From assembly GCA_020055645.1 (NCBI GenBank), contig CM034546.1, forward strand, positions 37,572,001 to 37,636,000: a stretch of DNA of 64,000 nucleotides. The letters are read 5' to 3'. This document shows, piece by piece, positions 4,276 through 34,280 of the stretch. The notes beneath the pieces were generated by a model that saw only the letters and a list, made by a program, of their open reading frames with translations, searched no databases and was not told where the DNA came from. Made by a program: the position numbers and the translations under genes. The stretch's first letter is position 1. The number at the start of each line of letters is the position of its first letter. This DNA is from Tomocerus qinae (Eukaryota > Arthropoda > Collembola > Entomobryomorpha > Tomoceridae).

Positions 4276-6484
4276 ATGGACGAAATTCTAAATAAGAACA
4301 TTGTTTTCCTTGCGAAAAATTTGTCTAACATTATTTCGGTACTTCTACATTTGCTGGAAATGAAAATTATAAGTGAACATGAATCAGATTCCATTGTAAG
4401 TATATTTAATCAAAATTCATTAAACGTTAACCCTAATATAACTAATACATTAAATTGTAGAAAGCCCACAAAACTAGTCTCGAGCAAAATGAAAAGTTGA
4501 TATCAGTAATGAAGAAGAAAGACTATAATATATTTCCAAAATTTTTGGAAATCCTTCGAAATACCGGAAACACTCATTTGGCAGACAAGTTGGACGAAAC
4601 AGCCTCGGAATTTGAAGTGTTACAAAATATGCAAAATCTTAACATCGAAAATACCATGGCGAATGATTTGGCAGACAATCCAGGGCTATCTCCATCAGGT
4701 TAGTATTAAATTAAACAACAGCAACATTGTTTATTCTACTGTAATTTTTATAATAGACAAATATGCTCTGTACATGATTAAACATGGATATAATTTAATT
4801 CAGAAACTGAAGAAGGTACTACTGAAACCATACAGAATTTTGAAATATTGGACAATCTTGGCGAAGGAACATACGGTGCAGTGTTATTGGGAAGGAAGCT
4901 TGGAAACAAGAATGAATCGGGGACACTTTATGCCTTGAAGGTTTTGTAAGTATTATATCCTTTTGTTTATTGATCATAATATAAATTAATCTGATAAAAA
5001 AAAATTTTTTCAAAAGTTCATGTTTTAAAATAAAATGTTTTGGGTAATGGTATCAATTAAATAAATGGGTAGATGATTAACTTGTTTATGTAGTTGGTAT
5101 GGATAATATTAGTGAACTATTATGTAAAAACACAACTGTATTCTTATGATAGGAAAACAAAATATCCAGCATTTGACAGAGAGATTAAGAGCTTGGAAAT
5201 ATTAGGAGATCATGAAAACATCGTAAAGTTATGCAACTCTTGGACAGAACGACGAGAAAAATTACCCCAAATTATCAAAATTTTGATTCCCAATAGCATT
5301 GACAACGTTTGTGTTATTCAAATGGAACATTGCGCCGGAAATGACTTAGAAAACTGGCTGGTGCTAGAGCCATCTAAAAAGACGGTAACAGATGCACACA
5401 GTATCATTTTACAAATCTGCAACGGAATGATACATCTCCATTCGGGAAAAAGAGGGAACGGAAAAGAAATACTCCATCGAGATTTGAAACCTCAAAATAT
5501 ATTATTCTACAAAATGTATGAAATTGGACATGTCCACGTAAAAATTGGAGACTTTGGATTATGCAGAAAAAGCGTTCAATCATCAAGAACTGCGCCAACC
5601 AAAAAGACAACCCGTCTTGGAACCCCTTTCTATTACGTCCTGAACAGGTTAAACCAATTGCATTATTTAAAAAAATACTTTATAAGATTGACTCCCAAAG
5701 CATTACAACCAAAATTAAGTTTTTAAAATGCAAACCTTTTTTGTGGCGCTCTTCGTTTTTATATCTGCTGACTACTGGCTTATATAAACACAATATTCAC
5801 ATAAATCAGTTCACAATATTATGTCCTACTTTACTATCTTATATGAACATACTAGGTATTTATTATATTATGATATATTGACTTACAAATACAGTGCTTG
5901 CAATAACATTTAATCGAATACTTAAATACATGTTCATGTATGGTAAAATCAATCATCATTTATTTGCACTTCAATCTATATAGAAATATATAATAATATA
6001 GAATTGATCAATTAACAAGCCATCAATCTGTCCTAGTCCTATATTATTTTTAAAAAATGAAACGATGATGACAGTTTTATTTAAACTCTATATAGCAAGA
6101 AGCAGGTCGATCAGAATACACAACAAAAACCGACATTTATTCAATGGGATTAATATTTATAGAAGTCTTGACATCCACTGTTTCGGGAGTCAGTTTTAAA
6201 ATTCAAGAGGACATCAGAAACAAGGAATACGTATATCAAGAGAAATTTGAAATTGAGGTACTACATGCCAGTTTTCTTTTTACTTTTTTGCAAACGTTTT
6301 GAATTTCTCCATAAATTATTTTATTTTATCTAATTTTCAGCATCAGTTTTTGGAACGCCTTATAAATCAAGATCCTGGAGTTCGTCCTGATGCAGAGGAA
6401 ACTTTCAGCTATTTTCAAGAGCTATGGAACAAAGATAATGATGTTAAAAACAGACATATTATAGTGGCAGGGAAACTTACTTGA
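4276..6484 (+). CDS. CARD + eIF2-alpha-kinase-like protein kinase, copy 1 (one-base lesion)
   Basis: Six exons: 4276-4395, 4461-4698, 4804-4945, 5153-5647, 6096-6257 and 6341-6484, all with GT-AG junctions and phases 0, 1, 2, 0, 0. Exons 1-2 encode a CARD: helices 2-3 end at ESDSI, and the second half carries the hallmark FPKFLEILRNTGNTHLADKL. After a linker come a glycine loop GEGTYGAV, the ATP lysine in YALKV, an alpha-C glutamate in REIKSLE, HRDLKPQN and DFG. NSWTE, VIQMEHC..NDLENW and LGTPFY place it nearest the eIF2-alpha kinases (PERK, PKR, GCN2, HRI). It would be about 433 residues. The end of exon 4 is one base short: GTPFYY is in one frame and the expected PEQ just before the splice donor in the next, so the copy is damaged unless a weak donor at about 5637 is used. 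CARDs bind other CARDs, so the neighbouring CARD NB-ARC gene is the obvious partner. AATAAA near 6596. Substrate specificity is inferred. Confidence 0.78.
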
Positions 6485-7389
6485 TCTTTTGGAATTAATT
6501 TTAAAAACTGCACCTAGTGGTTGCCAACTTTTATAATTAAAACGTGACACTATTTGTTATATGTAAATATGCTAAAAACTAAAACACTGATATGAAAATA
6601 AAAGGCTTTAAGTTCCTATTTTCTCTGTATATAGTTATACTCGTATAATATAAAACTTTAATGAGTAACTATCCTTCAACTGTTCATACCCATTTGCATA
6701 GCATTCATTTAGACTGGCGACTTCATTAGTGAAGTTGCATGGATTTATTAGTTGAATTAAGATTTAATGCAATAAGCCTGTATGCTGTTAGCTGGAAAGT
6801 GGATCATTATTGCATAGTATGTAATATTGATACTTTAACAATCAATACGTTTTTGTTTAGAGAAAGCATTACCCTTTTATTAAAAACTGGTGAATAATTT
6901 CGGAAATAAGTAGCGTACCTAATGAGTGCATTTGAAATTATCTAAATCACGTGAGAATTATATTTAATGGTGACATAGTTTCCGCTTTACATTAATGCTA
7001 TTAAAAATTAGAAATACCAATATATGATATAATGTAATAATATATTGCATCTCACAGAAATCATTTTCAACTGCGTAAATGTAATAATCTAAGTTTTGAT
7101 TGTAAACACAAACATTATCAAGAAACATTTTATAGGTTGACTTTGACGTAAAGTAAATTATCCACACCTGCTAGTTCATTTCGGCGAACAACACCAAGCT
7201 GGGCGTATTTAAAAATTTAACTTAATCTCTAGAAATATTTCTGGTAAGGCAAGCCAAAACGTAGGCACAAATCTACAGCACAATGGCGCCCATAAATTCC
7301 GAGAAAAATGATTGGTGCTTTGGAATATTTCACCAGTGATCACATTTGTAAAAATTTTAGCCTGCCATCCCAGCGACCTGGAATTATAC
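6485..7389. other. Intergenic, no gene seen
   Basis: AT-rich spacer ending at a hAT-type insertion. Only short, unsupported open frames. Confidence 0.5.
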
Positions 7390-7397
7390 CACATAAT

Positions 7398-8422
7398 CAG
7401 TGGCGGCTCTAGGATTTGCGAGGCCCTGGGCAAAATGGTCTCGCGAGGCACAATAGTAATAATTCACAAAAATTCAATTTTTAAATATGTTCGGGAATCA
7501 AAATGCTAACCGTTTAATGTGTTTAAAATTACTGAAATCATCGTTGATACAGTTAAATATTCAAACAGTTGTTTTTTCATGCATTTCACTTATGGCTATT
7601 CAAAATCATTTTAGCCAGCTAAAAATGGTACCCGGTAGAGTATGATTTATAAATATTAGACCGTAGTTAAGTTTCACTTCCTTCTGAAAAGAAGACTTAT
7701 TCAGTAATTAATTTTGCAATTACGAAGGAAGTTTTTGCTGTGGAGTCCTTAAATATATTATATTATAATTTTTTTGCTGCAGTTCAATAGCCAAACGTTT
7801 TTTTACTATTATAATGTTTAAAACTATGGAACTTTCTCGAGCGAAGCGAGAAAAGTTTTTCGTTTTTAACTGAATTTGTTCATAAAAATAATATGAATGA
7901 TATAATGAAATAATTACTTCTAAAGATTAAAACTCTTCCAAAATAAGAGCTTGAACCTCTGTCAAAGAGCGTGGAAGCGCTATTGAGACATTTTAAGATT
8001 TGAATTTTTTTCGTTTAAACTTTATTCCTTTCCCGTTTAGAAACAGCGATTACTGAAACCTTAATTGTCTGCAACTACTGCAATCCTGTGGTTTTAGTAA
8101 ATTGCAAAATGCAACTTTCTTCAATGAAATCAGATTAAAACTTTCAGAGATTTACTTTTAATGTTTCAATTTATATAACTTTGGAGAAATAGTATACTTT
8201 TCTTCCTTGAATTATTACAAATTAGGCAGCGATAAAGCTGTAAGAACTTTAGTCTGTAAAAATATTTATCAAAACGTATAACTTAAACTAAAATCGGTGT
8301 TTCTGAAATGCAATCAACAGAAAGAACTTAAATTTTTTTCTTTGTCAAAGCTCTGCGCGAGGCCCTCAAAGCGCGAGGCCCTGGGCAACTGCCCAGTCCG
8401 CCCATTGGGAAAGCCGCCTCTG
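7398..8422. mobile_element. Non-autonomous hAT-type transposon, 1025 bp
   Basis: The ends are inverted repeats: CAGTGGCGGCTCTAGG on the left, and CAGAGGCGGCTTTCCC when the right end is read on the other strand. Both arms carry GCGAGGCCCTGGGCAA further in. It is flanked by the same 8-bp target duplication, CACATAAT, at 7390-7397 and 8423-8430, the length typical of hAT insertions. The interior has no transposase frame, so it depends on an enzyme made elsewhere. Confidence 0.9.
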
Positions 8423-8628
8423 CACATAATATTGATTATGCGAACATTTTACACACATGGTCGCTCGCTTGCTGGATAAGAGCGTCGAAAACGGCCCCAC
8501 AAAATGTAAAGTATAATTTATGGTTATTGTTGTATATTTTTCGACTTTTACAGCTTGGCTGGAGATATTTAGCCAATGAAACGGTATATAAGGAAATATT
8601 GGAGCGAACCGAACCAGGTTCCGTTAGC

Positions 8629-9357
8629 GGATCACCCCCAATTTGTCAACGTTAAAATGTCAACAGAGCAAAAAAAATCGAAAACACTTTTTGTCAACAC
8701 CATTTTATTTTTTGTCAACAGCTATTATCTTTTTTGTCAACACCAGTGTTATTGATATAAATAGTCAAAATTAAATACTTGTAGTAGATTAAACCAAATA
8801 GGCAATGAAAATAATGTGTAAGATTAATGGTTTAGTAACCGTAAAATAAATGAAGTCAAATTAAATACGTCATATAAGCAGTAAGAAAAGTATCATGAAT
8901 ATTTTAAGATGTTATAGTTTGCTAACAACGGTATAAATCCACTTCGAGAAAGACAGTTTGGATTTGTTTCGAATAATATTTTTAAAAGTTTTAGAATATT
9001 TTGCAGCCTGGCTAGTGACCATTTTTCGGTTAAACCGATGATGCCATCCTTCCACTTGGAACAAAGTAGCCGATCTCTAACATTCCACATCTCAATGTTA
9101 AATAGAGGGGGGTCCCAGGACGTTCCGATGTAATTTGAAAAAAAATATCTTGCTAATTCATGTTCTTAAATGAATAGAGTAGAGGTAAGGTAGTACAGTA
9201 TTTAACACACGTACATTTCATATTATTTCACATGCACATGTAGGTGCAACATTTGTTGACAAAAAGGTTACTACGTGTTGACAAAAACTGATTTCCAAAA
9301 AAAAGTTGTTGACAAAATGGTGTTGACAAAAAGGTGTTGACAAAAAGGGGTAGTCCC
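8629..9357. mobile_element. Non-autonomous hAT-type transposon, 729 bp, with TTTTTGTCAACA subterminal repeats
   Basis: Inverted ends GGATCACCCCCAATTTGTCAAC and, from the right, GGGACTACCCCTTTTTGTCAAC. Several copies of TTTTTGTCAACA occur inside each end, in opposite orientation at the two ends, as expected of transposase-binding subterminal repeats. The 8-bp target duplication CCGTTAGC sits at 8621-8628 and 9358-9365. No coding capacity. Confidence 0.88.
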
Positions 9358-9881
9358 CCGTTAGCTGTTTGAGTGAACCCAAAATTAGCGGAACACAAAC
9401 TATCAAGTGTTAAATCATTAAATGTAAATTGAACTCAAAAATTGTTGTATTAATTGGCATACTTTTTAGGTTATTATATGGCTGGTATTGCCTAGAGATT
9501 GATTGACAATGACAGCTTAATCTTATTGACAAAGTTGTAACCAATATAAAGTGGCACAACCATATCTACTTTAAATACACTTCGTTTGAAAGATTTTTAA
9601 AGTTTTGTAGTAATAATAATATTGTTATTGATAACAAACTTGATTGCCATTAAATAGAAGTTATTTAAACAGTAAATTTATTGCGCTTGTATTCGGGTTG
9701 ATTATATATGTGCATAATTTGCACACATTTAACTTATATTGAATGCAGTGCATAGTAGAATGTAGAATGATAAATAAGTATATAAAAGATAAAAGTAACT
9801 TTTTCACGCTCCAGATTCATTTTTATTATTCCGAGCATAGTTCGCAAGTAAAGAAGCTGTGATAACATCAAAAAATTGAAA

Positions 9882-12594
9882 ATGTCATCCATAAAAAGAA
9901 AATATTAGGGGAAATTTAGTGAAAATTAGTGAAAATTTGATCAATATTCAGAAAGTATTAATTCATCTCTTAGAAGCCAATGTATTGTCAGTGGTGGAAA
10001 TTCAAACAATTGTAAGTAAAATAAGTAGTAATAATTAGTATCTAATTGGTAGTGAATTTCCAGTAAATAAAATTTCATTGCATTTGATTTGTGGCTATCT
10101 TTTAAGAGAACCAAATTTGAGAAAGATCCGTTTGATAAGAATTCCGAACTTTTCTTAATCTTGCTGGAAAAGAATATGGATTTGATCTGGGAACCTTTGA
10201 AAAAAACTCTTCAATTAACTGGAAATGAATATATTCTTGGTCTTTTGGAACTAAACAAATCTACTCACGACGGTAATTTAATATAATATGATATACATAA
10301 TTACTACATTACGTATATAATTTAAATTTATTTATAGAAAATCTATGACACGCAAATGACTTGTGTGTGGGATAGTTAAAGATAGATAGTGTGTCTTTGT
10401 ATGGCGGTAATATGAATGTGTATGGCAAGATTAAATATGTATGGTAAGTTTTTTCATAAACTTTGGAACAGAGTAACAACTGATATTGGTAAGTAATGTT
10501 ACATTTTTATTTTGAATTCAATGTAGTAAATTAAGATTTGATTCAATGTCAGTAAGGAATTAAATCAAACAAAATTGCATTAATTGACCCCCGTGTACAA
10601 GAACCTGGTATCTCATATTTACTTCAAATAACAACTAAAAAAATAAATTTACCGTAGAAAACTCTTTGCATTGGTTGCCAATAATATACCATTTAAGTTT
10701 CAAAATTTCAGTTTACAGATACCACGTTCTTATACACGACCCTTCAATTATAAAATACAAATAAGAGAAACGCGATGTATGAATTCCGATCTACTTGCCC
10801 ACTATTCAAGTATTAGGTACAGAGTTGAAGAATTAACTTGAAATAATAGGTATATGATGATAATATGTATATTATTAAAAAATTGGTAAAAGTAATACAT
10901 TATTATAATGATATACATACCTACTATATATATAAAAGTACATGGTCTTTATTGGTCGAATTGCGAGATAACGTAATAACGTCAGAGCTCAGAGCATTGC
11001 ATTGACTTCCCTTTACTTGACACATATAGCTAACTATGCACTTTGCATGGCTATTATAACAGTTTCTACTTGGGTAGTATATAAATGATAAGACAAGTAG
11101 GAGAGTTATTATGTTATATACTTTCAAAGGATGATGCGGTTGTTGTTGTTATACAAAAACTATCAACATATTTAAATACCTATTCATTATTTCCAAACAC
11201 ATACAAGAAGTAGGTCAATTGAATATTTATGAACATATATGTTATTGATTTTAATGGCGTTTTAAATATTTTTACAGCTTCAGATAAACACATAACGTTT
11301 TTCGGTCCTCGATCAATACGTCTCAGTGATTTTGACAATTTTGAGGTCATTGGTTCCGGTGGTTTTGGTACAGTCATGAAAGCAAGATTTAAGAAGAATA
11401 GAATAAAATACGCCATTAAAATCACGTATGAATTACACATATTAAATAAAAACTTGGAAACAAAACATTTATAAAATTGCCATGTTTTTAATTGTTGATA
11501 ATTGCTTGATAATCTTCAACAATGTTAATTATCTTGATATTTTTGCTTTTCAAACTAGGAAAAAACATTCACACCGCGAGATTCATTCACTAGTTGAATC
11601 TAAGCATCCAAACATTATCAAATGTGAAAGTGCCTGGAGTGAAATCGTCAACAGCGAGTCATTGATGCTCCATTCACAGTTTGAAGATTACATTGGATTG
11701 ACCATTTATTGCATTCAGATGGAGTTATGCAGTGGTCGAAATTTAACTGCATGGATTTCTAAACCTCCAGAGCTGAAAACTAGAGAAGATGCAAAAATAA
11801 TCTGCTTTCAGATTTCATTGGGCGTGCAAAGTTTGCACGCTAACAAAATAATTCACAGGGATTTGAAGCCAGCAAATATTTTGTTACTAAACACCTATCA
11901 GAAGGGAAACATTTTTGTAAAAATCGGTGATTTGGGGTTGTCTAAACAAACTTATCTGGAATCTAAAGCACACAGACGAAGCCACATGACCAACTGTGGC
12001 ACAGAGTACTATAAAAGTCCTGAACAGGTAATCATCGTTTTATTCTCCTCTGAATGCATTTCTGACATGATTTTAATAAATGGCTTAAAATCGTTTGGGT
12101 TTTTAATGAGATCCCAGGTGGAATCTGATAATAAACCATTTTTTGCAAATATATCCCCAAAAAATCGACTATAGTCCCACAAAAATCTTGTCTAGCTTAA
12201 AAAGAATTAATTTAACTATAATTGGGTCATATTTATTTGAAAGGAATCCGAAAGGGATTACGATCTGTTAACTGACATATTTTCCATGGGAGTAATTTTC
12301 TTCGAAGTTCTTTACTCAACCGTGGAGAAGAAAGAAATTCTGATCACCAATGTACGAAATGGTGTATTTCCCAGCGGGTTCAATGATAACTTTCCTACTG
12401 AGGTATTTGAGTACTGAAATATTTAATTGCGTTAACATAAGGAATAAAGGAATGTATATAATCATGACTTTTTGGTTTTAAAGAGACGACTAATCAAAGC
12501 AATGCTGTCACGAATACCTAAAGATAGACCTAATGCAGACGCTGTGACAAATCATTTGAAAACCACCTGGGAAACAAACAGTACAATTCTTTAA
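9882..12594 (+). CDS. CARD + eIF2-alpha-kinase-like protein kinase, copy 2
   Basis: Paralogue of the gene at 4276, with exons 9882-10011, 10107-10272, 11278-11425, 11559-12027, 12244-12402 and 12484-12594 and the same intron phases (0, 1, 2, 0, 0). Exons 1-2 give a CARD (NLINIQKVLIHLLEANVL.. then LIWEPLKKTLQLTGNEYI). The kinase has GSGGFGTV, the lysine in YAIKI, HREIHSL, HPNIIKCESAWSE, IQMELCSGRNLTAW, HRDLKPANIL, a DLG in place of DFG, CGTEYYKSPEQ and TDIFSMGVIFFEVL, close to eIF2-alpha kinases such as PERK. Exons 2-6 stay open. Exon 1 does not: from the ATG at 9882 the CARD frame is reached only if one base of the A-rich tract at 9893-9902 is ignored. Either this copy lost its start, or an alternative first exon splices at about 9908. 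DLG instead of DFG still permits metal binding in many kinases. Confidence 0.8.
10273..11277. other. Enlarged intron of CARD-kinase copy 2
   Basis: A 1005-bp intron between the CARD and kinase exons; the same intron in copy 1 is 105 bp. AT-rich, no exon or clear transposon ends recognised. Confidence 0.6.
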
Positions 12595-12684
12595 ATAACA
12601 CCTTAAAGATACACTTAATTATTATAGTTTCATGTCCACAATTCCTATTTCCTTCAGAAAGACATTAGATCATATATAATCTAG

Positions 12685-12817
12685 CATTACAATAGGCTTA
12701 TTCTCAGCGAGAACTTGGAGTGGAGCATCAACGTGGAAAATCCAATACTTGCAGCTGAAGCTCCCACCTTGATTTTCTCGACTCAAAGCTTTCATTGAAT
12801 ATAAGCCTACTGTAATG
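12685..12817. mobile_element. Small hairpin-forming MITE-like element
   Basis: GCATTACAATAGGCTTA at 12685-12701 is matched by its near-perfect inverse at 12801-12817. The inner sequence is also imperfectly inverted (GCGAGAACTTGGAGTGG against the complement of CCCACCTTGATTTTCTCG), so almost the whole 133 bp can fold on itself. Lies between a kinase gene and the LRR-only gene. Confidence 0.65.
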
Positions 12818-12823
12818 CAACAT

Positions 12824-12935
12824 GTCGTCCCTTAGGGAACCATTTAGCCTAAATCCACTTTTCGTTTTGTGTACGGAATAGCCTATTTAGCCTATCTCCG
12901 CAGCCTAAATCCGTAAAACAGCAATTGTGGACGTG
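12824..12935. repeat. Partial copy of the CGTCCCTTAAGG element
   Basis: Shares CGTCCCTTAGGGAACCATTT and the following CCACTTTTCGTTTTGTGTAC with the ends of the larger element at 24648-25205, without the internal tandem array. Ends near GGACG. Confidence 0.65.
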
Positions 12936-12991
12936 AAATTATAATACTTCAAGCAGAAATATTTTTAATTTCACTCGTTGACTAATATATT

Positions 12992-14710
12992 ATGATTGAT
13001 TTAATTACAGTTACTAGAGAGCCTCCAGTAATTGACATCAATGGGAACACTATTTACAATACAACTGACCTGATGTCGCCCAAGCCGGGAACTAGTTATC
13101 CAATGGCCCGCAGACTCAGTATAAGTGAAAAGTCAGGTAGCAAAAGCAGTATAAATGATGGCTCTACGGGGGATGATTCTGTACAGCCGTATAGTAACTC
13201 ATTGGAAAAATATAGTACAGATAATGGAGTTTACTACCTGCGGAACAATCTGCTACTCAGTGTGGGATATAGCAATGATCAACTGCGAGAATTAGCAAAA
13301 GTCCTTCAAAATAATCTGGTGGCTTTAGAAATCGCTCAATTGACTCTAAACAAGCGTAGATGTAGCATAAAAGTTTATTTGGACAGGTTCAAACAAGCAA
13401 AACCTGTGAAGATAGATCAGGAATCGAATTCCATGCAAATTATTAAGTATTCATCATTATTTTTTTGGGAAATATTAGAATGCTTAGAACATCTTTCAGT
13501 TGCAAATTATTCTGCTCTGTGTAAAGATGGGCAAGTAATTTTGACAATTAACAACTCTCAGTCGTTAAACGAACTGAAAATTAGATTTCAACCTCGGGAC
13601 CAATTAGACACTTTGTTTTTCAAAAATATAGACGTCCCTAAAAATCTGGGGATTGTTAACATTGAAAATGCAATCGGTGATAGCCAAACACACACTCTTG
13701 AATTCCCAATTAAATTTCTGTCTTCCTCTGTTGAACAAATCACATTAACCCACTGCACTCTTATTGCAGAAGGTAAAATATGTCCAAAACAGGTAAAATT
13801 GGTTCATATAAAAATTGTTCAAGACAGAGAAGACCTCAAAAGCTTTAACATATGCGATTTGTTCGACTTTGAGGCAACTAGACATTTACTGATCCATGAC
13901 AATTTAGGCAAAACAAAATTGGCGTTTGACATAAGCAAACTAGTAGAATTAGACACCCTGGATTTAAATTGTTCACAGTTACTCAATTGGAGTAACTCAG
14001 TTGCCAAAATTAACAAATTCACTTTGGAGAATTTTAAATTGGAAGAAAAAACGCAAATGACAATCAGGGAACTTCGTACCTTGTCAGGAATTAATCCACA
14101 TTTTATTCCACAATCCATAGAAAAGTTGCACATTATAGATTGCATTTCCAATGGAAAGTTACGAAGTGTTAGGACCGATTTACCTAATTTAAAATATCTT
14201 AGCATTGGCTGTAATCAAATTGCTACATTTACTGACATGGTAAGATGCCCAAATCTGGAAATATTACTTGTTACTTTGGGCAAGTCCTGCACTAATTTGA
14301 CGACCCATACAGCAAAGTTTTTGGAGTTTGAGAAAGTCAGGAAAATTAGACTTGATACTGTCCCACTTTACTTTAATGGAATCCACAAACTAGATACACT
14401 CATACTTCATTCTTACGATTGGAAAAATGTCAATTTAATTTTAACGCATTTTTCGACTGACAACCTTGTCCTTTGGTTTGATCGACCTGTAAAATTGCAT
14501 CAATTGGATAACATTTTGCAATTATTCCAAAATTTCAACAAGCGTAAGACAACTGCGATCGGGGAATTTGATCTTAATGACGAAGAGTTTTCAGAGTCTA
14601 ATCTTAAGTTATATGTTGAAAGGAATGCCAGGTTTTACTTGTTCACAAATAATAGTAGTAAAGCAGCAGCTCTGGACAAGGATGAAATCGAAACTAGATG
14701 CCATCTGTAA
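12992..14710 (+). CDS. LRR-like protein with a remnant NB-ARC segment
   Basis: A 572-residue open frame. Roughly residues 95-140 (LRELAKVLQNNLVALEIA..LNK) match the GxPLAL segment of the NB-ARC protein encoded on the other strand at 15.4-18.9 kb (LKKLCRLLGNLPLALQLAVA). The P-loop, Walker B and winged helix are absent. The remainder is a series of short leucine-rich strands (IEKLHIIDC, DLPNLKYLSIGC, LDTLILHSYDW) that align with the LRR-like C-terminus of that same protein (IEKLHLYSA, DLPDLKYLTLKW, VDKLILEDFSF). So it looks like a family member that lost its ATPase core. The first codons overlap a good splice acceptor (TTTAATTACAG at about 13000-13010), so upstream exons are possible. A serine-rich stretch lies at about residues 40-65. 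AATAAA overlaps the stop codon. It may act as a sensor or decoy; function is inferred. Confidence 0.7.
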   Translation: MIDLITVTREPPVIDINGNTIYNTTDLMSPKPGTSYPMARRLSISEKSGSKSSINDGSTGDDSVQPYSNSLEKYSTDNGVYYLRNNLLLSVGYSNDQLRELAKVLQNNLVALEIAQLTLNKRRCSIKVYLDRFKQAKPVKIDQESNSMQIIKYSSLFFWEILECLEHLSVANYSALCKDGQVILTINNSQSLNELKIRFQPRDQLDTLFFKNIDVPKNLGIVNIENAIGDSQTHTLEFPIKFLSSSVEQITLTHCTLIAEGKICPKQVKLVHIKIVQDREDLKSFNICDLFDFEATRHLLIHDNLGKTKLAFDISKLVELDTLDLNCSQLLNWSNSVAKINKFTLENFKLEEKTQMTIRELRTLSGINPHFIPQSIEKLHIIDCISNGKLRSVRTDLPNLKYLSIGCNQIATFTDMVRCPNLEILLVTLGKSCTNLTTHTAKFLEFEKVRKIRLDTVPLYFNGIHKLDTLILHSYDWKNVNLILTHFSTDNLVLWFDRPVKLHQLDNILQLFQNFNKRKTTAIGEFDLNDEEFSESNLKLYVERNARFYLFTNNSSKAAALDKDEIETRCHL

Positions 14711-14963
14711 TAAAATTATTATGTTAATACTAGTTGTTGCCTGGCGTTTTACAATTGTAACCTAGGAATTTGATCTTAGTGACGAAAATATTTTAGAGTC
14801 TAATCTTCAATTATATGTTGAAAGGAATGCCAGGTTTTATTTGTTCAAAAATAATAGCAGTAAAGTATCGGCTTTGGACAAGGATGAATTCGAAACTAGA
14901 TGCCATCTGTAATAAAATTATTATCTTAATATTAGTTGTTGCCTTGTCTTTTTAGAATTGTAA
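14561..14963 (+). repeat. Tandem duplication of the 3' end of the LRR-only gene
   Basis: About 200 bp covering the last 50 codons, stop, AATAAA and 3' flank (14561-14763) is repeated directly at 14764-14963 with scattered substitutions. The second copy keeps the reading frame and the terminal TRCHL-stop, but it lies downstream of the gene's stop. Confidence 0.9.
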
Positions 14964-15443
14964 CCTGAAGATGTAATGTTAATTACGTAAGCAATTAAAT
15001 GTTGAGTTTTATGTATAGACTTTGTATACAAAATATTTATTAAGTGGAAATCATAATTCATTTATTGGATAAGCATAAAATATTAGATACGAATTTTTAA
15101 AAATTCAGAGTTGATTAGTAGACTTATAAGACCTACTTTAGTGCAATTAATATTATCCTACTACATTCTAGTTACATGCAAAGAACCCAATCGGAACTGC
15201 TGTGTTCCTAATTGAATCAACCGCATTTAAAATTAGTTCATAATAACTACAAAGTATGAGTGTAACATAATTAAAATTACAGATGCACGTAGAAGAACTG
15301 CAGAATATAAATTATTAATGAAAGTAACTTAGAGAGGAATTAAAATGCTACGCCCAAAGAAAACATTGATTTCTCTACGAGTTAATTCATCAAATCTTAA
15401 CTAACAACTCAAATGATAATTGCTATAGATTGCTGGAAATAGT
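14964..15443. other. Convergent spacer, no gene seen
   Basis: AT-rich gap between two genes that point towards each other. Confidence 0.5.
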
Positions 15444-18400
15444 TTAATACAATTTAATTAACTCCTCAAACTCTTTATCCTCCATTTCAATCTCTTTTCC
15501 TCCATCCGACAAATTAAAATATGCTTTTCTGGTGACCTGCCATTCTTTGTCCCAATATGGTATTCCGACTGCAACTTTCTTTATTTCTCTCTTCTTCAAA
15601 TCAGTAAACTCTTTTTGCGGTAAAGTCACAAAAGCTAACAACAAGTTCATCTGTCTGAAAATGACCCAAAAATTGTTTCACTTGTTTAAAAGAGAAGTCT
15701 TCTAGAATGAGTTTGTCCACTTTCCTCACTCCACCAACAACAATTGTGTCTCTATTGGTTATTTTGATGTAATTGAGGCTTTTAGGAAGTTGGTCCACAC
15801 TCACTTCTTTTATATGACAAAAGTGGACGTGGGTGGGATTGACAGATAGGAAAGATGACAAGGATGAAGTATCGGAGATCCATTTCAGTGTCAAATATTT
15901 TAAATCTGGAAGGTCAATTGGTTCATTACAAACAACTTCTGCTGAATACAAATGCAGTTTTTCAATTGTTGGTGGTAGACAAAAAACGTCTAAAGAAGAA
16001 TAATTAAATTCCATTTCTTTGATTTTCATTTTCGTCTTTTCCACAAATGGAATGTTCCACAATTCTAATTTTTGAATATCCCAATTGGCCTCATTCCAGT
16101 TATTCACTATTACATTCCACAAGTCAAGATATTCCATGGAGATTTCTTCCCTCATCTCGATTGACATTTTATCTCCAGAGAGGATCAATCTATTTATTTT
16201 TTCAAAGTCACAAAATTCGTTGACATTCGCCTCCTCCACTTCCCGCCCATTTCTATTGAATGAGACATTCCATAACCTCAACTCCTCTGGAGACAGTTGA
16301 TCGAAAGATGAAAGATCGACTGAACATTCTTGCAAGTAAATTTTGCTTGATTCTTCTCCCAATTCCAATTCGATTGTAGATAGAGAATCACACTTTACTA
16401 AAGAATAACTGGACTTTATGAGATCAGAATGAACTAATCGAATCAAAGTGCCAAGTGAATCTGTGGAATAAATGACCGTAAAACTTTGTCTGCATTCCAA
16501 AAGGTCTTTTATGCTTATTCTATTGTCCATTTTCCAATGAAGAATTAACAGATGACCCCAAATAAGATTTCTGGATAATTCTTCTTTCAATTCCAACATT
16601 CCCATCTCCATTGCATCTTTATAATACGATGTAGTTTCCATCATTTCTTCCATCTCCAAATCAATCAGGATATCCAAACTTTCTTTCATCTGCTTATTTT
16701 TGAAAAGACAAACTGCTAAATTAAATTTCGTTGTTTGAGTCTTTAACTCCTCACAAATGAACTTTGCTAATTCAACTGATTCTTCAAATCTCTCTTCTGA
16801 AATCAATTTCTTTAATTGTCGTTGATCGAGTAACTCGGCTCTTACTTTTGAAAACTGTTTTTTCAATTCTTCGTCAGCGTATTTCGTAAACGGAAGGAAT
16901 TTGTAGTCGATAAATCCAACGCAACCGAGAATCTTTTTCAGCGTCTCCATTTCAGTTTTTTGCCCGTTGTGACGAATAACTTGCTGCAGTAGTCGATGAA
17001 TGCTCAACAAATACATTTCAATCTTTATTTCATTCTTACGCAACAATTTATTCATTATTCCATCGCTATGGGGGTATTCACATACTTTTCTTGTTTTTGT
17101 AATTAAGGAATATTCTTCTAGCAAGTTTATCACTTCTTCCATTTTCTTAGAATCGATATTTAAAACTTTCATCAGAAATATTGATCTAATGTCATCTGGT
17201 CGAAAGTATCCAAATATCATTAAAATTTTATAGGCTAATTTCCCGTTTCTTTGTTGTAAAATTAAATCCAATGAAATGTTGATATTTTTATTGATCGTCT
17301 TTTCATAGTCATCAAATTTTTCTTCAAGGAATTCCAAATCCTTTGTCGAAGTTTGCTCAATGTAATTTTGCAGTTCAATCTTTCCGTTATTTAAAGCGGC
17401 GACAGCTAATTGAAGAGCCAGAGGAAGGTTTCCCAACAATCTACATAATTTTTTGAGCTCCAAATCTGTTCGTTTTATTGATTCAAGTAGCGTGGATTTC
17501 AAAAATTTCAGACTTTCTTCTTCGCTGAAAATGTCCAATTCCAGACTTGATATTTTCCCGAATCCAATCTTCTCCGTCCCCCAACCACGGCTTCGGGATG
17601 TAATGATGCAGTAAAAGTTTTTTCGTCTTTTGGAAGAACATTTATTATTCCATCTTCCCCTTTGTAATTTTCAGCATTGTCGTATATCCAAAGACATTTA
17701 AATGCAGACAACGCATCCAAACATTTCCCTGAATAATCTTGAACGTTGGCCAATTCATTTCTATTCGGTATTTCCAAATCTCTGGCTAGACTTTTGAAGG
17801 AGGTAAGTAAACTGCCTTCTCCACAATCGATCCAGATTATATGATCATATTCTTGCTCATAAGTATGTGCATACCATTTGGCGGTGAGAGTTTTACCGAC
17901 TCCGCCCATCCCAGAATATTTGGACGCATCTGGAGTCTCGCATATGACCAGCATTCGGTGCTCGTCTTTCGAAATTCGGTCATGTAACTCGTCAATTAAG
18001 AGTTTCGCCCCAATTTTTCTTTCCTGAAGAGATTTTATTAACAGCTTTTTTTCTTGCCACCACTTTTTATTTAATTTTGGATGAAGAAGAAAATTCTGGG
18101 TTTGAAATGGAAAGAAATCCTGCGGAAGACCAGGACGAAAATATCTGTGGGTCGTTTGTTGAATTTCATGTGCACAGCGCTCATTGCTTGTCTTCCGTAG
18201 TATTTCCAAAAATGAATTTCTGATTTCCAGCCAGTCCTTAGTTTGCAATGTGGAGAGCAGTTTGTAGTTTTTTCTGGTTCTTGTACTTTCTGCATCCTGT
18301 GAATAAAGTTTTAAAGCTGACAAATTATATACCCGGGAAAAGAGAAAACCGAGAGCATAGCACTATACTATGTAGGCAAATATTTGCATTTTAATTAATC

Positions 18401-18868
18401 CATATAATTGCCTTCGAGGGGTTTATTTTATAATGTAGATATTTCTAAGTTACAATTCTTAATTACAAATACTAACTAATACTGTTTAATTTTTTTATTT
18501 TCAATACATCAATTACCAATTCTGCTATTACCAATTTGGACAATAATGTAATCCTCCTCATTTCACAATATTGAAAAACCTTCGTTTTAACTACTTGTGA
18601 TATATTTGTACTCAAAATCCAATGAAAGTGTTGTACGGTACCCTAACTTTTAATGAAAATTAAAGCGTAGAAATGATCTTCTGGTTAACCTTTAATTGGG
18701 CATATGGAGTCATTAAATTCATGAAGTTTAGCAAATATTTTACTTACAATATCCTCGCTTTCAGCTATTGAAATGATGCCACACCGAATCAAATAGGTCC
18801 GCACTAATGTCAAATTGGATATGTTTTCTGTGAGGAAAACTTAGATTTTCTTTAATTTCTTCTTCCAT
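15444..18868 (-). CDS. CARD + NB-ARC + winged helix + LRR-like protein (NLR/Apaf-like), three one-base lesions
   Basis: Exon 1 (18868-18748) starts MEEEIKENLS and encodes CARD helices 1-3 (NISNLTLVRTYLIRCGIISI). After a phase-0 intron, exon 2 (from 18296) completes the CARD (IRNSFLEILRKTSNERCAHE). It is followed by an NB-ARC ATPase: P-loop GMGGVGKT (17889-17912), Walker B CLWIYDN (about 17680), TSRSRGWG (about 17590) and GNLPLAL (about 17420). A winged helix ends in SIHRLLQQVIRH (about 17000), and the leucine-rich C-terminus is homologous to the gene at 12992. Such STAND ATPases oligomerise on sensing a signal and recruit CARD partners. The frame changes three times by one base: in the A4 (+) at 18836-18839, the T6 (+) at 17618-17623 and the A4 (+) at 15630-15633. 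The conserved motifs continue in the new frame each time. About 990 residues if undamaged; as read it is probably a pseudogene or recently broken allele. Confidence 0.75.
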
Positions 18869-21790: not shown

Positions 21791-22483
21791 CGGGCTATGA
21801 TGTTGTGGCAGTTAGTCAGTTGTAACCGGCAACAATTGCACTACGTACTTACATGCACCGCTGCGGTAGAGTAAAAACTGAGTTCATTCTTCAATTTCAC
21901 TCTGAAAACTATTAATACTTTTAAGCCTTTAGCCACCGCCTATACAGCAATTTTAGACATGACAGTCTCAGGTAGCTACCCCCAACAATGTTGCAGAAAT
22001 AGTTACACACAAATATGATTGTTAATTGCATCACATTCTGTGAAATTAGAAACTTTAGTTTGTTGTAATTTGAGTGTAATTGCAGTTGTTAAAACTTATC
22101 CATTGGGCACGTGTACAATTGTTTATAAAAGTTCTTGTCATGTTTTGTTTCTAAAGAATGTATAATGTATTTTATCTTTCGCGGAATAAAATAACAAAGA
22201 AAATTGGAATACTTAACTTTACCCTACTTTACCCGTTACAACTAAATCAATTATGTATTTTTACAGCACTACCTTCTGGTGGGTTGAAGTTTTGTAATTA
22301 TTTCCTTTCCATTGAATTCATACCGAAATCGACTCATTTCCCGAGATTATACAAAAAATTGAGTTCCGGTTATCATTACTTTGCTTTATAAAGCATAAGG
22401 ACCATTGCGTATCATTGCGACCAGGACCAATTCAATTGGCGTAATATATGTAAAACTAAACATTTATAATACTATAATAGTGA
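21791..22483. other. Intergenic, no gene seen
   Basis: No recognised feature; immediately upstream of an IR pseudogene. Confidence 0.45.
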
Positions 22484-24576
22484 TGCATCAATTAATATTA
22501 GGACGTTTATTTCTTCCTTTTGTGACTTGTGTATTGGCCTTCGAAAAAAACATGATGGAGGCTCAATCAATAAAACATCCTGTTTTGCAAATCTTGTTTC
22601 AGTTGAATTTGCAAAAATTTACTAAAATCAATGTTCCTTCTCAGAAAATAATAAAGATAAAGATTCTTGCCATCATCAAGGGAATATTTTTTGTGAAGAA
22701 CTGATTTCAAATGTCCATATAAAGTATTATATTCCAACTACTGCACAAAATGTTATTTCATTTTCTAAAAGTTCAACAATTCATAAATATTTTGGAAATA
22801 ATTTAAATTGTCATATCACTGTAGTGACAGCAAATAATATTATAAGCATCAATGACAATTTCAAGATTCCTGGGACATCGTTCATTTTTATTGTTTTGAC
22901 AAATATAAAGCTTACAGAAATCTTCAAGCCATTTCGATTGAAAACTAAGAAAATCAACGTCTTACTTAATTACGCATGATAATGTGTATAAAATGTGTTA
23001 TTTTTGTGCTGATTTTTGGAAAATCATTTTGGTTGAAAACAAAAACTGGCGATAGCATTCCGAATCTTCAACGGTCAATGAATTATCATCGGGCTTCATT
23101 TACAGGTGTTTCTGAGGCTCCAATGACAACAGAAAAATTGTTAAAACTGGAGAATTTTCATGATGCCTACACCAGAATTGAGTTTTAACCGTTCTGCACC
23201 AATTCCACTTCCACTGAATTTTATTTTCAGACAGATAGTGGATTCTTATAATTTATCAGTAAATATCTTCAAAATGGGGACATATCCTGGAAAGCCGCAT
23301 TTATACGTGTCTCTCAGCACTTATTTAAAAGTCATTAGAACTATGACAAAATATTACCACGTTTTGTACCTCCGGTATTACATGGGATCTGGCATTTGTC
23401 TCAAATAGTGGAAAATACATACACCAACAAAAAGGATTGAGAATTATATTTGAGCCTTTGGGAAAATGGACAGCATTGACAATTTTACCTTCCGTAGTAA
23501 CTGTTGTTTTAGTATTTTGGATATTTTCTATTTTCCAAGTTGGATACAAAAAGGCTGACTTAGGAGGATATTTTGGAGCTACAGGTCGTCCTCTTTTAGA
23601 CCAAGCACAAGAAAACAAGCTGCCGTCAAATAAAAATTCATTTCGAATTGTTTTTACAACGTGGCTATTTTACTGTCTATTAATCTCTGAATGCTATCGT
23701 GGAACATTGACAAGTTTTCTTATGGCGCAATTACCAACACAGAATCTGAAAAATTTTTTTGATTTAGTAGAAAACAATAAATCTGTATTTACAATTCCCA
23801 AATTACCAAACCCAAATTCAAGTAAGGTTGCATCTATCACTGAAGATGCCTTATTAGAAGAGGTTTCTAATCGAAACAATTCTGTTTTGAGTGATTTACG
23901 AATAAAACTTCAAAATCCATCTGCTTGGGTAACTGGCAACGGAAAAAATGTTTTAAATGGAGAAAATGATGAAATTTGGCTGGAAATCTACAAACGAATT
24001 GTTGGCAATAACGAAGTGTATATTGGGACAAGATCTATGATTGAAATAGCAGGGTTATTAATGGAGAAATTTATTTCAAGGGACACTTATGTTTTGTCTT
24101 CGGAAACTATAAAACGGGATCAACTGTTTGTATTGTCAAGAGATCCATACCCAGAAGTCAGGCAAATGTTTGAACAATTTCAAAGCAGTGGTCTTATTTG
24201 GAAGATAGCTAACATATATTTGTACTACCATAAGAGTAGAGCAATTTACTCAATAACATCTAACAAACAAAATAAAAATAAAGTTCTGGATATCCTTTCA
24301 ACAGCAACGATTGGAAATGGTAGACCCCGTCCAATGGCATTTAAACACATCAAAATTCCTCTGATTTGGTGGCTGCTTGGAATTGCTTTTTCAATATTGG
24401 TTTTCATAGTTGAAATAGTGAAGTCATTATTTCTAAATTGCATTACAATTTGTCACAAATATATTTTGAAATGTTATTTTTGCTTACTTTCTGTGACAAT
24501 ATTGTTAACAATGAATATTTATTGGATCATTTGCTCCTTCACGCGTGTTTTATTAAGACAACGAAAAAATGTGTAA
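22484..24576 (+). pseudogene. Ionotropic receptor pseudogene (subfamily B)
   Basis: Close relative of the intact IR at 34281. The start MHQLI, the AQSIKH..QLNL segment, and the LBD pieces (TIHKYFGNNLNCHITVV, PMTTEKLLKLENF, PLNFIFRQIVDSYNLSVNIF) are all recognisable but lie in different frames. Breaks fall between about 22690 and 22720, near 22975, near 23165 and near 23366. From about 23400 to the stop the frame is open and complete: membrane segment ALTILPSVVTVVLVFWIF, ECYRGTLTSFLMAQLPTQNL (the iGluR SYTANLAAFL region), second lobe and last membrane segment IPLIWWLLGIAFSILVF. The C-terminus is about 30 residues longer than in the intact paralogue. Several breaks make full function unlikely; a truncated protein from the 3' half is conceivable. 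Confidence 0.82.
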
Positions 24577-26787: not shown

Positions 26788-29724
26788 TTATGTCTTATGC
26801 AAGTCGATATTTACGCCAACCGCCGGAAACACACGATTTCCACTTCGAACATTGTTGACGATGACTTTTAATTTGATAACGTTCGTTTTCAGCGTCAATC
26901 TACAGTGCCAGGACCATTCTAGAAGAAGAGTGATGAACGATCCAATCAGAAAGTATCCACAAACGAAGAATATGGCATGGACTTTCATGTTCAGACTAAT
27001 AGACAATGTCTGAGATTCTTTGTGCTTCAGTTTCGAGTGGGATTTTATATCGTCCAAATCAGTAACCAAACCATATTGTTCCTTGAAATGTTTCAGAAAA
27101 CCTTTCTCTTGCATGATTTGGAAATATGATCGGAATTTATAACGGTATAGCAATCGCTGAACATATAAGACCATGGATCAGCAAGATCTGTTTCCTTTGC
27201 AGTCATGCAAATTCCGTCAGAAGATACTTTAGATGGTATTAAGGCAACATAGTATTGACTTGAATCTTTAAGACATAAATGAAATAGTTTTAATGGGAAA
27301 TTGGTCACCATTGTCAATACAAACCAGTGGTCCATAATGTGTTCAGAATTTGCATCGAATTGCCAGTCAAATCGGAAGACACTTGAATTCATCTTGTCTA
27401 GAATTCTGTATTTTTCAAAATATTCGATTCTCTCATCGTTTATATTCCGTAGTATATCTTTCTGCAATAACAACTTGTATCCATTTTGCACGAGATCTTT
27501 AAAGTCGACAAATTGCTTTCTGTCTGGTGGAGCAATAATCTCGCTTGTTATCCACGTTTCATATTGAGTAGCAATTATTACTGATTCGCTTTAACATCTA
27601 CCACAATGGATACAATGGAAACTAATGAAACACCATCGCTAATTGGATATTTTGTATTGTGTTGCTAATTGCTTTTAATTGCTTTTCCTCGACGCTCGGC
27701 GAAGCGAATGCAGTAGTGAATGTGTTGTAGACAGCAGCTCGATGGAGGGGGCAATAAAACTGGCGAAGTTGTATCTTCAATATACCGAACGGAGATTATA
27801 ATACACAATCTCACACACAAAGTACCAAATAGTAATAAATAACATATTAAGAAGCTTACCACGCATGCCTGCATAGTAACCACAACCAAATAGACCTTGC
27901 TAAATGCATGTTAAATAATGTTTTACATCTGGCTTTATTCCTCCCGAAGGATAAGTCCGATTTTTATGGAACTTAAATATTTGGAATCCTGAACTATCGA
28001 GAAACACTCGAGTGTTGCTGGATTTTTGATACCACTGTTTTAAATGTTTAAAAAATGTCAAATTCCAAAAAAAGTGGACCAGTTTTCGTTTTTATAGAAT
28101 GTTCACTTTTTGCACCATTTAAAGCAACGATATAAAAAATCCAGCAACCCTCGTGTGTTCCTCGATACTCCAGGATTCCAAATATTTAAGTTCCATAAAA
28201 ATCGGACTTATCCTTCGGGAGGAATAAAGCCAGATGTAAAACATTATTTAACATGCATTTAGCAAGGTCTATGTGGTTGTGGTTACTATGCAGGCATGCG
28301 TGGTAAGCTTTCTTAATATGTTATTTATTACTATTTGGTACTTTGTGTGTGAGATTGTGTATTATAATCTCCGTTCGGTATATTGAAGATACAACTTCGC
28401 CAGTTTTATTGCCCCCGCCATCGAGCTGCTGTCTACAACACATTCACTACTGCATTCGCTTCGCCGAGCGTCGAGGAAAGGCAATTAAAAAGCAATTAGC
28501 AACACAATACAAAATATCCAATTAGCGATGGTGTTTCATTGTTTCCATTGTATCCATTGTGGTAGATGTTAAAGCGAATCAGTAATACAAATCCCATGGA
28601 CACAATTACCAAGTACAAAATGTTTCTCCTTTTTATTGGAAACTTCCTGATTTAAAAGGACGGCTATTGTGGATACAAAAATAAACTCTAATTTCTTGTA
28701 GAAAGTAGAAATTCTAAAGCCTAAAGCATAAAATGAAATCGGGAATAGCGAAAATATCAGCCACCAGCAATAATCATCAAATGTATTTTGAATCAGAACT
28801 GACAAAGGAATGTCCACCAATCGAGGGTTGGCTTCACAGTAATATGGAATAATCTCTTGAAAGTACTCAGTGAAAATTGTTATATTCCATGCCTCAGCAT
28901 AAGTTTTCGTGTAAGATCCTAACATCCCAATAGTTCCACATGGAAAATATTCTTTTAGATCTTCATATCGCCTTACATATACCGCAGTGAAGTTCAATCT
29001 TTCAGCCATCAATGCAACAGCTCTCACTGAATTTCGACATTTTCGATTGACCCTATTAGTTTTTACTATTGAATAGAGCACCATTTTACACTCTGGCATT
29101 TCTATAAGACCATTGAACAAAAAGTAGCCTAATAGGCCACCAATTTGAATGCCATGAAGATTTCCGTTTAAAGTATTCCACTCTGTTTCCCATTCTTTTT
29201 CGGAGTTTTCTCTGTCAACTGGATAAATAGTTAAATGCGTACCAAACTGAAAAAATCCAAAAAATGAATTCTTGCGATTGTAGAGACTTGTCGAGTAAAT
29301 CCTATATTCGTTTCCAACTTTCATTCCAAATATAAACAGAGGAGCCACCAAATCTGTAATGAGTCTTGATATCCCCTCGTCTGTATCATTCATCCATATC
29401 AATTCATCTTTGATGACGATTATGAATCTCGAAACCCCAAGATTTATTTCTTTGCCAAAAAGAGCAACTAGATTTTCTTGAAAAGTGTCTGGCTCCATTA
29501 GAACATTTACAGTGCAGAAACTTCTAGAGATCCCGTGGATAATCTTGATGACGACCGAAGAGAGTTTTATTATAGTCTGATGTTGCCACGGTCCATGGTT
29601 GGCCATTTTGGTTGAACAGGATAAAATCTGTCTGCCATTCGGACTGATGGAAAGTAATCATGTTAAAATCACAATTACTATAGAACGACAAATTTCGAAA
29701 GCAGTTTATGTTGTTTGTAATCAC
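26788..29724 (-). pseudogene. Ionotropic receptor pseudogene (subfamily A) split by a transposon
   Basis: Relative of the IR at 1505: INCFRNLSFYSNCDFN..QNGQPWTVATS at its start against NCIRNLSSFNNCDFN..QNGQPWTIATS. The N-terminal piece shifts frame at about 29560, after which the ligand-binding region and first membrane segment (28569-29606) are open. A second shift lies near 28615. The gene is then interrupted at 28586 by a 1008-bp palindromic element. Past the insertion it resumes with ATQYETWITSEIIAP (counterpart of HYETYITGELIVP), a second lobe (27093-27491), another shift at about 27140, and a last membrane segment (HAIFFVCGYFLIGSFITLL) to a stop at 26788. Three frameshifts plus an insertion make it a dead gene. 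Confidence 0.85.
27578..28585. mobile_element. 1008-bp palindromic (foldback) transposon with TA target duplication
   Basis: Starts TTACTGATTCGCTTTAAC and ends with its exact inverse; TA lies at 27576-27577 and 28586-28587. The two arms (about 27578-28048 and 28116-28585) are near-perfect inverted copies around a central segment of about 70 bp, so nearly the whole element forms one hairpin. Both arms contain the same 60-74-codon open frame in opposite directions, which is a by-product of the palindrome. TA duplication suggests mobilisation by a Tc1/mariner-type enzyme (inference). Confidence 0.9.
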
Positions 29725-33553: not shown

Positions 33554-34280
33554 GTATGTTATTCTAAACCATAATAATAGGTGTATACCTATTATAGTAC
33601 ATTCACATTCGCATAAATACTTTTTACTTGCATCACAGTCTGTAAAAACTTTTAATGGTAGTAAAGGGTTCTAATTTGAGGCTTTTGTGTATAATTGCAG
33701 TTATTGCATCAGTGTACAATTATTTATTTAAAATTAAAAGTTGTTAGTAAAAAAGTATTATTTCGAAGAAATATTATAAACAATGCTTCCAAGGAATAAA
33801 ACATAAAAATAAATATGCTACATTGTTAGCAAGCATCGAACTTATTCTACTGTGCTTGTACATGGGCGACAAACGAATAGGCATTTAATTTTCTTTAATG
33901 TAAGTCTGTAAGGTATAAAATTTATTCAATACGAATGTGTGTCATAGTCCTTAGTATACGTAGAAATTCATTTTTCATAGAATAAAAGAAAACTTTCTTT
34001 TCTTGATACTTCCACTAGTTTATCTAGTTAAAACAAGTTTTTTTTATCATACAACCTTTCATTTAGTTGTAGTTTTCTCTATGCAAATTATAAATCTAAA
34101 AATTAATAAATTCTTCGAAAATTTTCCAAAATTTTGATATCTGGTTTTCATTGCATTGTTATTGTAAATTCCTGGACAAAGTTTCATTTATTAGTGAGTT
34201 AGTGAAATTTGTTACGTCAAAGTAGTAGTCGCGTGTTGTTGTTAGCAGGATTTTTTTTATTTTGTATAAGCCATCTAGTA
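33554..34280. other. 5' flank of the intact subfamily-B IR gene
   Basis: AT-rich, no gene. The open frame of the IR continues a little upstream of its ATG (to about 34209) without another start codon. Confidence 0.45.

Follow-up and report, generated by a model that had tools for sequence, protein, structure and literature searches.

Two kinases of the eIF2alpha-kinase (PEK) class, each fused to an N-terminal CARD, lie beside a gene that encodes a CARD, an NB-ARC ATPase, and an LRR-like tail at positions 4276-18868 of the window, the whole stretch of 64,000 nucleotides of Tomocerus qinae DNA that was analyzed. The three CARDs share one exon structure, and the genes are neighbors. The fusion of a CARD to an eIF2alpha-class kinase next to a CARD/NB-ARC/LRR-like gene is the strongest new point of the analysis. 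The best explanation of the locus is a small NLR-to-kinase signaling cluster in which the receptor encoded by gene C would act through the CARD kinases A and B on eIF2alpha, a reading to which we give slightly less than an even chance.

Organization of the locus

The preliminary description of this DNA placed four genes in 4276-18868, and translation of the window bears this out. Genes A and B are tandem genes on the plus strand, each with six exons that encode a CARD plus a kinase. Gene D starts ∼400 bases past B, and gene C lies tail to tail with D.

4276..6484, plus strand: gene A, CARD-kinase 1; exons 4276-4395, 4461-4698, 4804-4945, 5153-5647, 6096-6257, 6341-6484
9882..12594, plus strand: gene B, CARD-kinase 2; exons 9882-10011, 10107-10272, 11278-11425, 11559-12027, 12244-12402, 12484-12594; start and stop codons present
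12992..14710, plus strand: gene D, LRR-like, single open frame, 572 aa
14765..14966, plus strand: partial tandem copy of the gene D 3' end, matching 14563-14763 at 89.6% identity
15444..18868, minus strand: gene C, CARD / NB-ARC / helical / LRR-like tail; exon 1 18868-18748, exon 2 18296-15444

The ATG of gene C at 18868 agrees with the gene end described before, and its stop lies at 15444. All 11 introns of A, B, and C (five, five, and one, respectively) are GT-AG. Each of the five introns of A has its counterpart in B at the same position and, allowing for a frame break in exon 4 of A, in the same phase; the two proteins are 30% identical over 420 columns. Gene D had been said to share the LRR-like tail of C; the two tails align over 302 columns at 24.5% identity (E 7e-18 in a set of five sequences). 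Together, these identities point to two tandem kinase paralogues and two genes with a common tail. D has no CARD or NB-ARC match (Pfam), and as a tail-only protein it may act as a decoy or a co-receptor or be a relic. The idea that D is the spliced 3' part of B was ruled out by the stop codon of B at 12594.

The rest of the window contains several unrelated elements. A Pao-like LTR retrotransposon, read from its ORFs, occupies 49241-55681 with three long ORFs in succession in one frame; its two 377-base LTRs are 100% identical, suggesting a recent insertion. Ionotropic-receptor-like paralogues at 22461-24480 and 34206-36242 are 78% identical as DNA over 1900 columns. ORFs of this type would suit a protostome genome; of the two intact ones, however, one scores 30.3 bits for Lig_chan (cut-off 30.8) and the other has no Pfam match. 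A transposase of the DDE_Tnp_4 kind lies at 39241-41663 as overlapping ORFs in different frames, and long inverted repeats are present at 27576-28587 and 60612-61420 (self reverse-complement identity 94.2% and 84.5%, respectively).

Reading-frame breaks and the question of decay

Five frame breaks that are absent from the preliminary description interrupt the coding sequences: one in A, one in B, and three in C. Their exact points were set from the reading frames.

Near 5632, plus strand: frame break in gene A, exon 4, in the activation segment just before PEQ
Near 9893-9897, plus strand: frame break in gene B, shortly past the start codon
Near 18836, 17619, and 15630, minus strand: frame breaks in gene C

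Such breaks raise the alternative of a decaying cluster, in which the copies of A, B, and C found here would be pseudogenes from a formerly functional family, leaving the locus with little activity today. Gene D, two receptor-like ORFs, and 5.8 kb of the Pao-like element in the same window are without a frame shift, a contrast that favors decay but is biased because these ORFs were picked for being intact; the partial duplication of the 3' end of D points the same way. Nevertheless, decay appears unlikely, if still a serious contender. The frames followed in A, B, and C contain no nonsense codons, the introns all keep GT-AG borders, and the catalytic motifs are retained. Four of the five breaks fall at homopolymers of at least four bases; for comparison, 25% of 5458 coding bases are no more than three bases away from such a homopolymer. 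A similar picture is provided by the receptor-like copy at 22461-24480, which differs from its intact paralogue at 34206-36242 by five frame-shifting indels, although none of 658 codons is a nonsense codon. Single-change codons divide into 116 synonymous and 110 non-synonymous ones, and the pattern in this copy suggests consensus errors more than decay.

A shared CARD in three genes

The CARDs were located as follows.

4276..4595, plus strand: CARD of A; intron after residue 40, phase 0
9895..10178, plus strand: CARD of B, residues 2-63 of the spliced piece; tblastn position 9895; intron at the place matching A and C
18141..18837, minus strand: CARD of C; intron 18747-18297 inside the CARD

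A CARD encoded by exons 1-2 had been proposed for three of the genes, and the Pfam profile detects it in each of them above the gathering cut-off of 23.9 bits. The spliced exons score 50.7 bits for A (E 1.8e-13), 29.3 bits for B (E 9e-7), and 29.8 bits for C (E 6.1e-7), the query pieces of B and C beginning just past the first frame break of each gene. Inside the longer proteins, the scores are 47.5, 26.0, and 25.1 bits, respectively, all above the cut-off. When the exon halves of CARD A are scored separately, the first covers profile positions 2-43 at 13.3 bits, below the cut-off, and the second covers positions 41-83 at 26.4 bits.

In all three genes, a phase 0 intron interrupts the CARD after an Ile codon at an equal place, and over 93 residues CARD A shares 38% identity with CARD C. 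An intron at one common site suggests that a single CARD exon pair was duplicated, and common descent is the simplest reading of the three exon pairs. It is plausible from this similarity that the CARD of the receptor pairs with those of the kinases. All three CARDs are mildly acidic, and their net charges therefore do not point to complementary faces.

The same evidence can be read differently. A and B on the one hand and C on the other may serve separate pathways, for example apoptosis with a CED-3-like CARD caspase; their CARDs would be common through exon duplication and the genes neighbors by descent. Such a history fits the shared intron, and CED-3 is the best solved relative of CARD A, though only at E 0.017. 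Shared descent of the CARDs favors homotypic binding as well, however, and the presence of three CARD genes within 15 kb would fit a functional unit. Separate pathways are considered improbable.

NB-ARC domain and LRR-like tail of gene C

The two distal parts of gene C occupy the following positions.

17269..17918, minus strand: NB-ARC of C; P-loop GMGGVGKT, Walker-B region CLWIYDNAE, ITSRSRGWG, GNLPLAL; SIHRLLQ downstream
15601..16350, minus strand: putative LRR-like beta solenoid of C

Gene C was described before as a STAND ATPase with a P-loop and a Walker B motif. This assignment is upheld by the Pfam NB-ARC profile, which scores 31.4 bits against a cut-off of 23.5 when X is placed at the frame breaks. 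The unbroken 5' piece of C alone reaches 17.1-17.3 bits for NB-ARC, below that cut-off, and 28.5 bits for AAA_22 (cut-off 27). The proposed winged-helix end has no Pfam match above cut-off; it is a putative feature, based on an HRLLQ stretch that C has in common with NB-ARC-TPR proteins. No NACHT match was found in C at E up to 1 (Pfam), so C falls outside the vertebrate NLRs as defined by NACHT.

The matches of this ATPase that name an organism are bacteria, fungi, and diatoms. A further relative, P0121 (source label lgn, E 1.1e-52), is a protein of 1039 aa with no frame breaks. Immediately ahead of its P-loop, C carries some 8 to 9 residues that P0121 lacks (about 17930-17960 of the window, minus strand), which is unusual for a P-loop ATPase. 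A PDB search with residues 1-646 of C returned three matches at E up to 1, none of them an NB-ARC structure. A search with profile A4, which is dominated by bacterial-type rows, gave AfsR as the best NB-ARC match, followed by a chain named "NB-ARC domain-containing protein" and by plant Roq1 and NRC1, among the best 60 of 153 matches listed.

The tail of C matches no Pfam family above cut-off, and the LRR_4 score of D, 22.6 bits, falls short of its cut-off (27). Foldseek returned nothing significant with the model of C; the LRR call therefore rests on VIA-align and sequence, and the fold evidence for an LRR-like tail is supportive only. The AlphaFold model of D is poor (mean pLDDT 45.8), and Foldseek found nothing with it at E 0.001. 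Among 7994 candidates scored, no homologue of the C-terminal ORF of C (15601-17670) reached E 0.001.

Kinase domains of genes A and B

The kinase domain of B is the better preserved of the two catalytic domains.

11278..12594, plus strand: PEK-class kinase domain of B; motifs GSGGFG, AIK, HRDLKPAN, DLG, SPEQ, TNVRNG

The Pfam Pkinase profile scores 126.8 bits in A (X at one break) and 143.4 bits in B. Whole B contains Pkinase, the CARD at 26.0 bits, and the related PK_Tyr_Ser-Thr above cut-off and nothing else, and only kinase and CARD families exceed the Pfam cut-off in A and B. The best PDB matches of B are PERK (126.6 bits), PKR (121.2), HRI (85.3), and GCN2 (81.5), with the next class represented by ULK1 (71.3); the 14 rows that precede ULK1 (126.6-76.1 bits) comprise 12 named eIF2alpha kinases and two entries with general names (1zxe, 9bf3). 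For A, the best matches are PERK (77.7 bits), PKR (74.9), and GCN2 (74.7), and 15 rows (77.7-64.9 bits) precede NEK2 at 61.6 bits, of which 14 are named eIF2alpha kinases and one (1zxe) has a general name. The assignment of both kinases to the eIF2alpha-kinase class, which goes beyond the preliminary description, is thus well supported, most of all for B. It also agrees with the earlier suggestion that the two CARD kinases are of another class than the kinase of NLR-RIPK2, given that their nearest relatives of solved structure belong to the eIF2alpha kinases.

B retains a full set of catalytic motifs; DLG replaces DFG, and the alignment reveals the same replacement in a fish PKR and a Folsomia kinase. 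The TNVRNG motif of B aligns with LTDVRN of PERK and FTDLRDG of human PKR, and A has EDIRNK at this site. In PKR, this helix contacts eIF2alpha. The T of the motif is not diagnostic because it varies among PKR and HRI-like rows: the position is D in two fish PKRs, S in a shark PKR, and K in an HRI-like protein. Ser51 of eIF2alpha is the predicted substrate of B and perhaps of A. The kinase of A is divergent, with E in place of this T, an HRI score (56.6 bits) below that of NEK2, and a long branch (2.74) in a kinase tree of 20 rows.

In that tree, A and B group together at 94/96, just under the mark of the tool (95 and 80), and fall outside the fish PKR clade (99/96); the backbone is without resolution, and A and B are placed with no single eIF2alpha kinase type included. 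A protein search with B against 5.8 billion proteins gave 1153 matches at E 0.001 among 3999 candidates. Fish PKRs are the best of these, the top hit being 37% identical over 69% of the query. CARD (PF00619) is present in none of the 120 kinase matches listed, of 1153. Orthology of A and B to PKR is not supported, given their position outside the fish PKR clade (on an unsupported backbone) and the lack of a dsRBD by Pfam.

Some of the proteins matched by B carry other features. The Folsomia candida protein P0041 is named ribosomal protein S6 kinase alpha-5, but its kinase is PEK-like by eye, and the name may therefore be wrong; the tree does not group it firmly. B also matches kinases in the Oppiella nova proteins P0008, P0037, and P0053, and the precomputed domain list gives PF00415 (RCC1) in P0037 and P0053.

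The least probable alternative, for which very little room is left, is that the kinases are the arthropod equivalent of PKR, self-assemble by their CARDs, and answer another upstream signal (e.g. viral RNA via a helicase with a CARD), with C only a neighbor. Vertebrate PKR is the best database match of B, and PKR is marked absent in all 11 complete rows taken from a longer table of arthropod vectors (PMC7917218). Yet neither A nor B has a dsRNA- or Z-binding domain by Pfam, and nothing ties them to RNA.

Proposed mechanism and significance

A signaling cluster that runs from C through A and B to eIF2alpha remains the preferred explanation. C would be a STAND receptor in which the LRR-like tail senses, the NB-ARC switches, and the N-terminal CARD signals outward by recruitment. 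Oligomerization is typical of NB-ARC receptors, helical assembly of CARDs, and activation by dimerization of eIF2alpha kinases. A ligand may thus open C, which would then oligomerize, and the clustered CARDs of C would recruit the CARDs of A and B. The crowded kinase domains could then dimerize and autophosphorylate, after which B, and perhaps A, would phosphorylate eIF2alpha, lowering translation and launching the integrated stress response.

This explanation draws on the three CARDs above cut-off with one intron place and phase, the 38% identity of CARDs A and C, the NB-ARC above cut-off, and the scores and motifs of kinase B. The intron agreement of A and B, their grouping in the tree, and the frame-intact long relative of C (P0121) add to it. 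Counted against it are the five frame breaks, the lack of a called CARD in P0121, the divergence of kinase A, the A-B grouping just under the tree mark, the extra residues before the P-loop of C, and the uninformative charges of the CARDs.

No title among the literature matches listed concerns a CARD-eIF2alpha kinase or an NLR of Collembola. A CARD-driven eIF2alpha kinase would be of interest because PKR is marked absent in the 11 vector rows above (PMC7917218). A broader proposal, possible but rather doubtful, is that in some arthropods a CARD/NB-ARC/LRR NLR activates dedicated CARD-fused eIF2alpha kinases, giving animals believed to lack PKR a PKR-like shut-off against viruses or bacteria, with a receptor ATPase akin to that of NB-ARC-TPR proteins from prokaryotes and fungi. 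Should the pairing prove real, an NLR-type receptor of an invertebrate would lead to translational arrest directly, without interferon, RIPK, or caspase, providing an arthropod route to PKR-like defense. The role of NLR-like genes outside vertebrates and plants would then be testable with two short proteins.

Comparison with known systems

The closest relative of the receptor, P0121, is homologous to C over residues 119-552 (32% identity) and has an NB-ARC of 37.5 bits; its NACHT score is 26.6 bits against a cut-off of 26.7. No CARD is called in P0121, and the tails of the two proteins are not alignable by BLAST. NB-ARC-TPR proteins of bacteria, fungi, and diatoms (DUF7779 type, FxSxx-COOH system, AfsR) have LWIYDNAE, ITSR, LPLAL, and HRLLQ or close variants as in C, with E down to 2.7e-14. 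In contrast to C, which ends in an LRR-like tail, most of them end in TPRs, and their printed domain lists contain no CARD. The order of CARD plus NB-ARC in C is also that of Apaf-1 and CED-4; C has an LRR-like tail in place of WD40 or no tail. Neither protein is among the three PDB matches of C or the best 60 of 153 profile matches.

The kinase domains of PKR, PERK, HRI, and GCN2 are the best solved relatives of A and B, which consist of kinase and CARD only by Pfam, with none of the sensing parts of those four kinases above cut-off. The Folsomia candida protein P0041 is a springtail kinase 33% identical to B over the aligned part; unlike B, it has ZZ and LIM domains and no CARD.

NOD1/NOD2-RIPK2 is the vertebrate system in which a CARD NLR works with a CARD kinase, and RIPK2-type proteins have a RIPK-class kinase and a C-terminal CARD. 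The locus resembles this system in combining a CARD receptor, with a nucleotide-binding ATPase and an LRR (here a putative, LRR-like tail), and a CARD-bearing kinase. It differs in that the ATPase of C scores as NB-ARC and, at E up to 1, does not match NACHT, and in that A and B have the CARD N-terminal to a kinase whose closest relatives are the eIF2alpha kinases.
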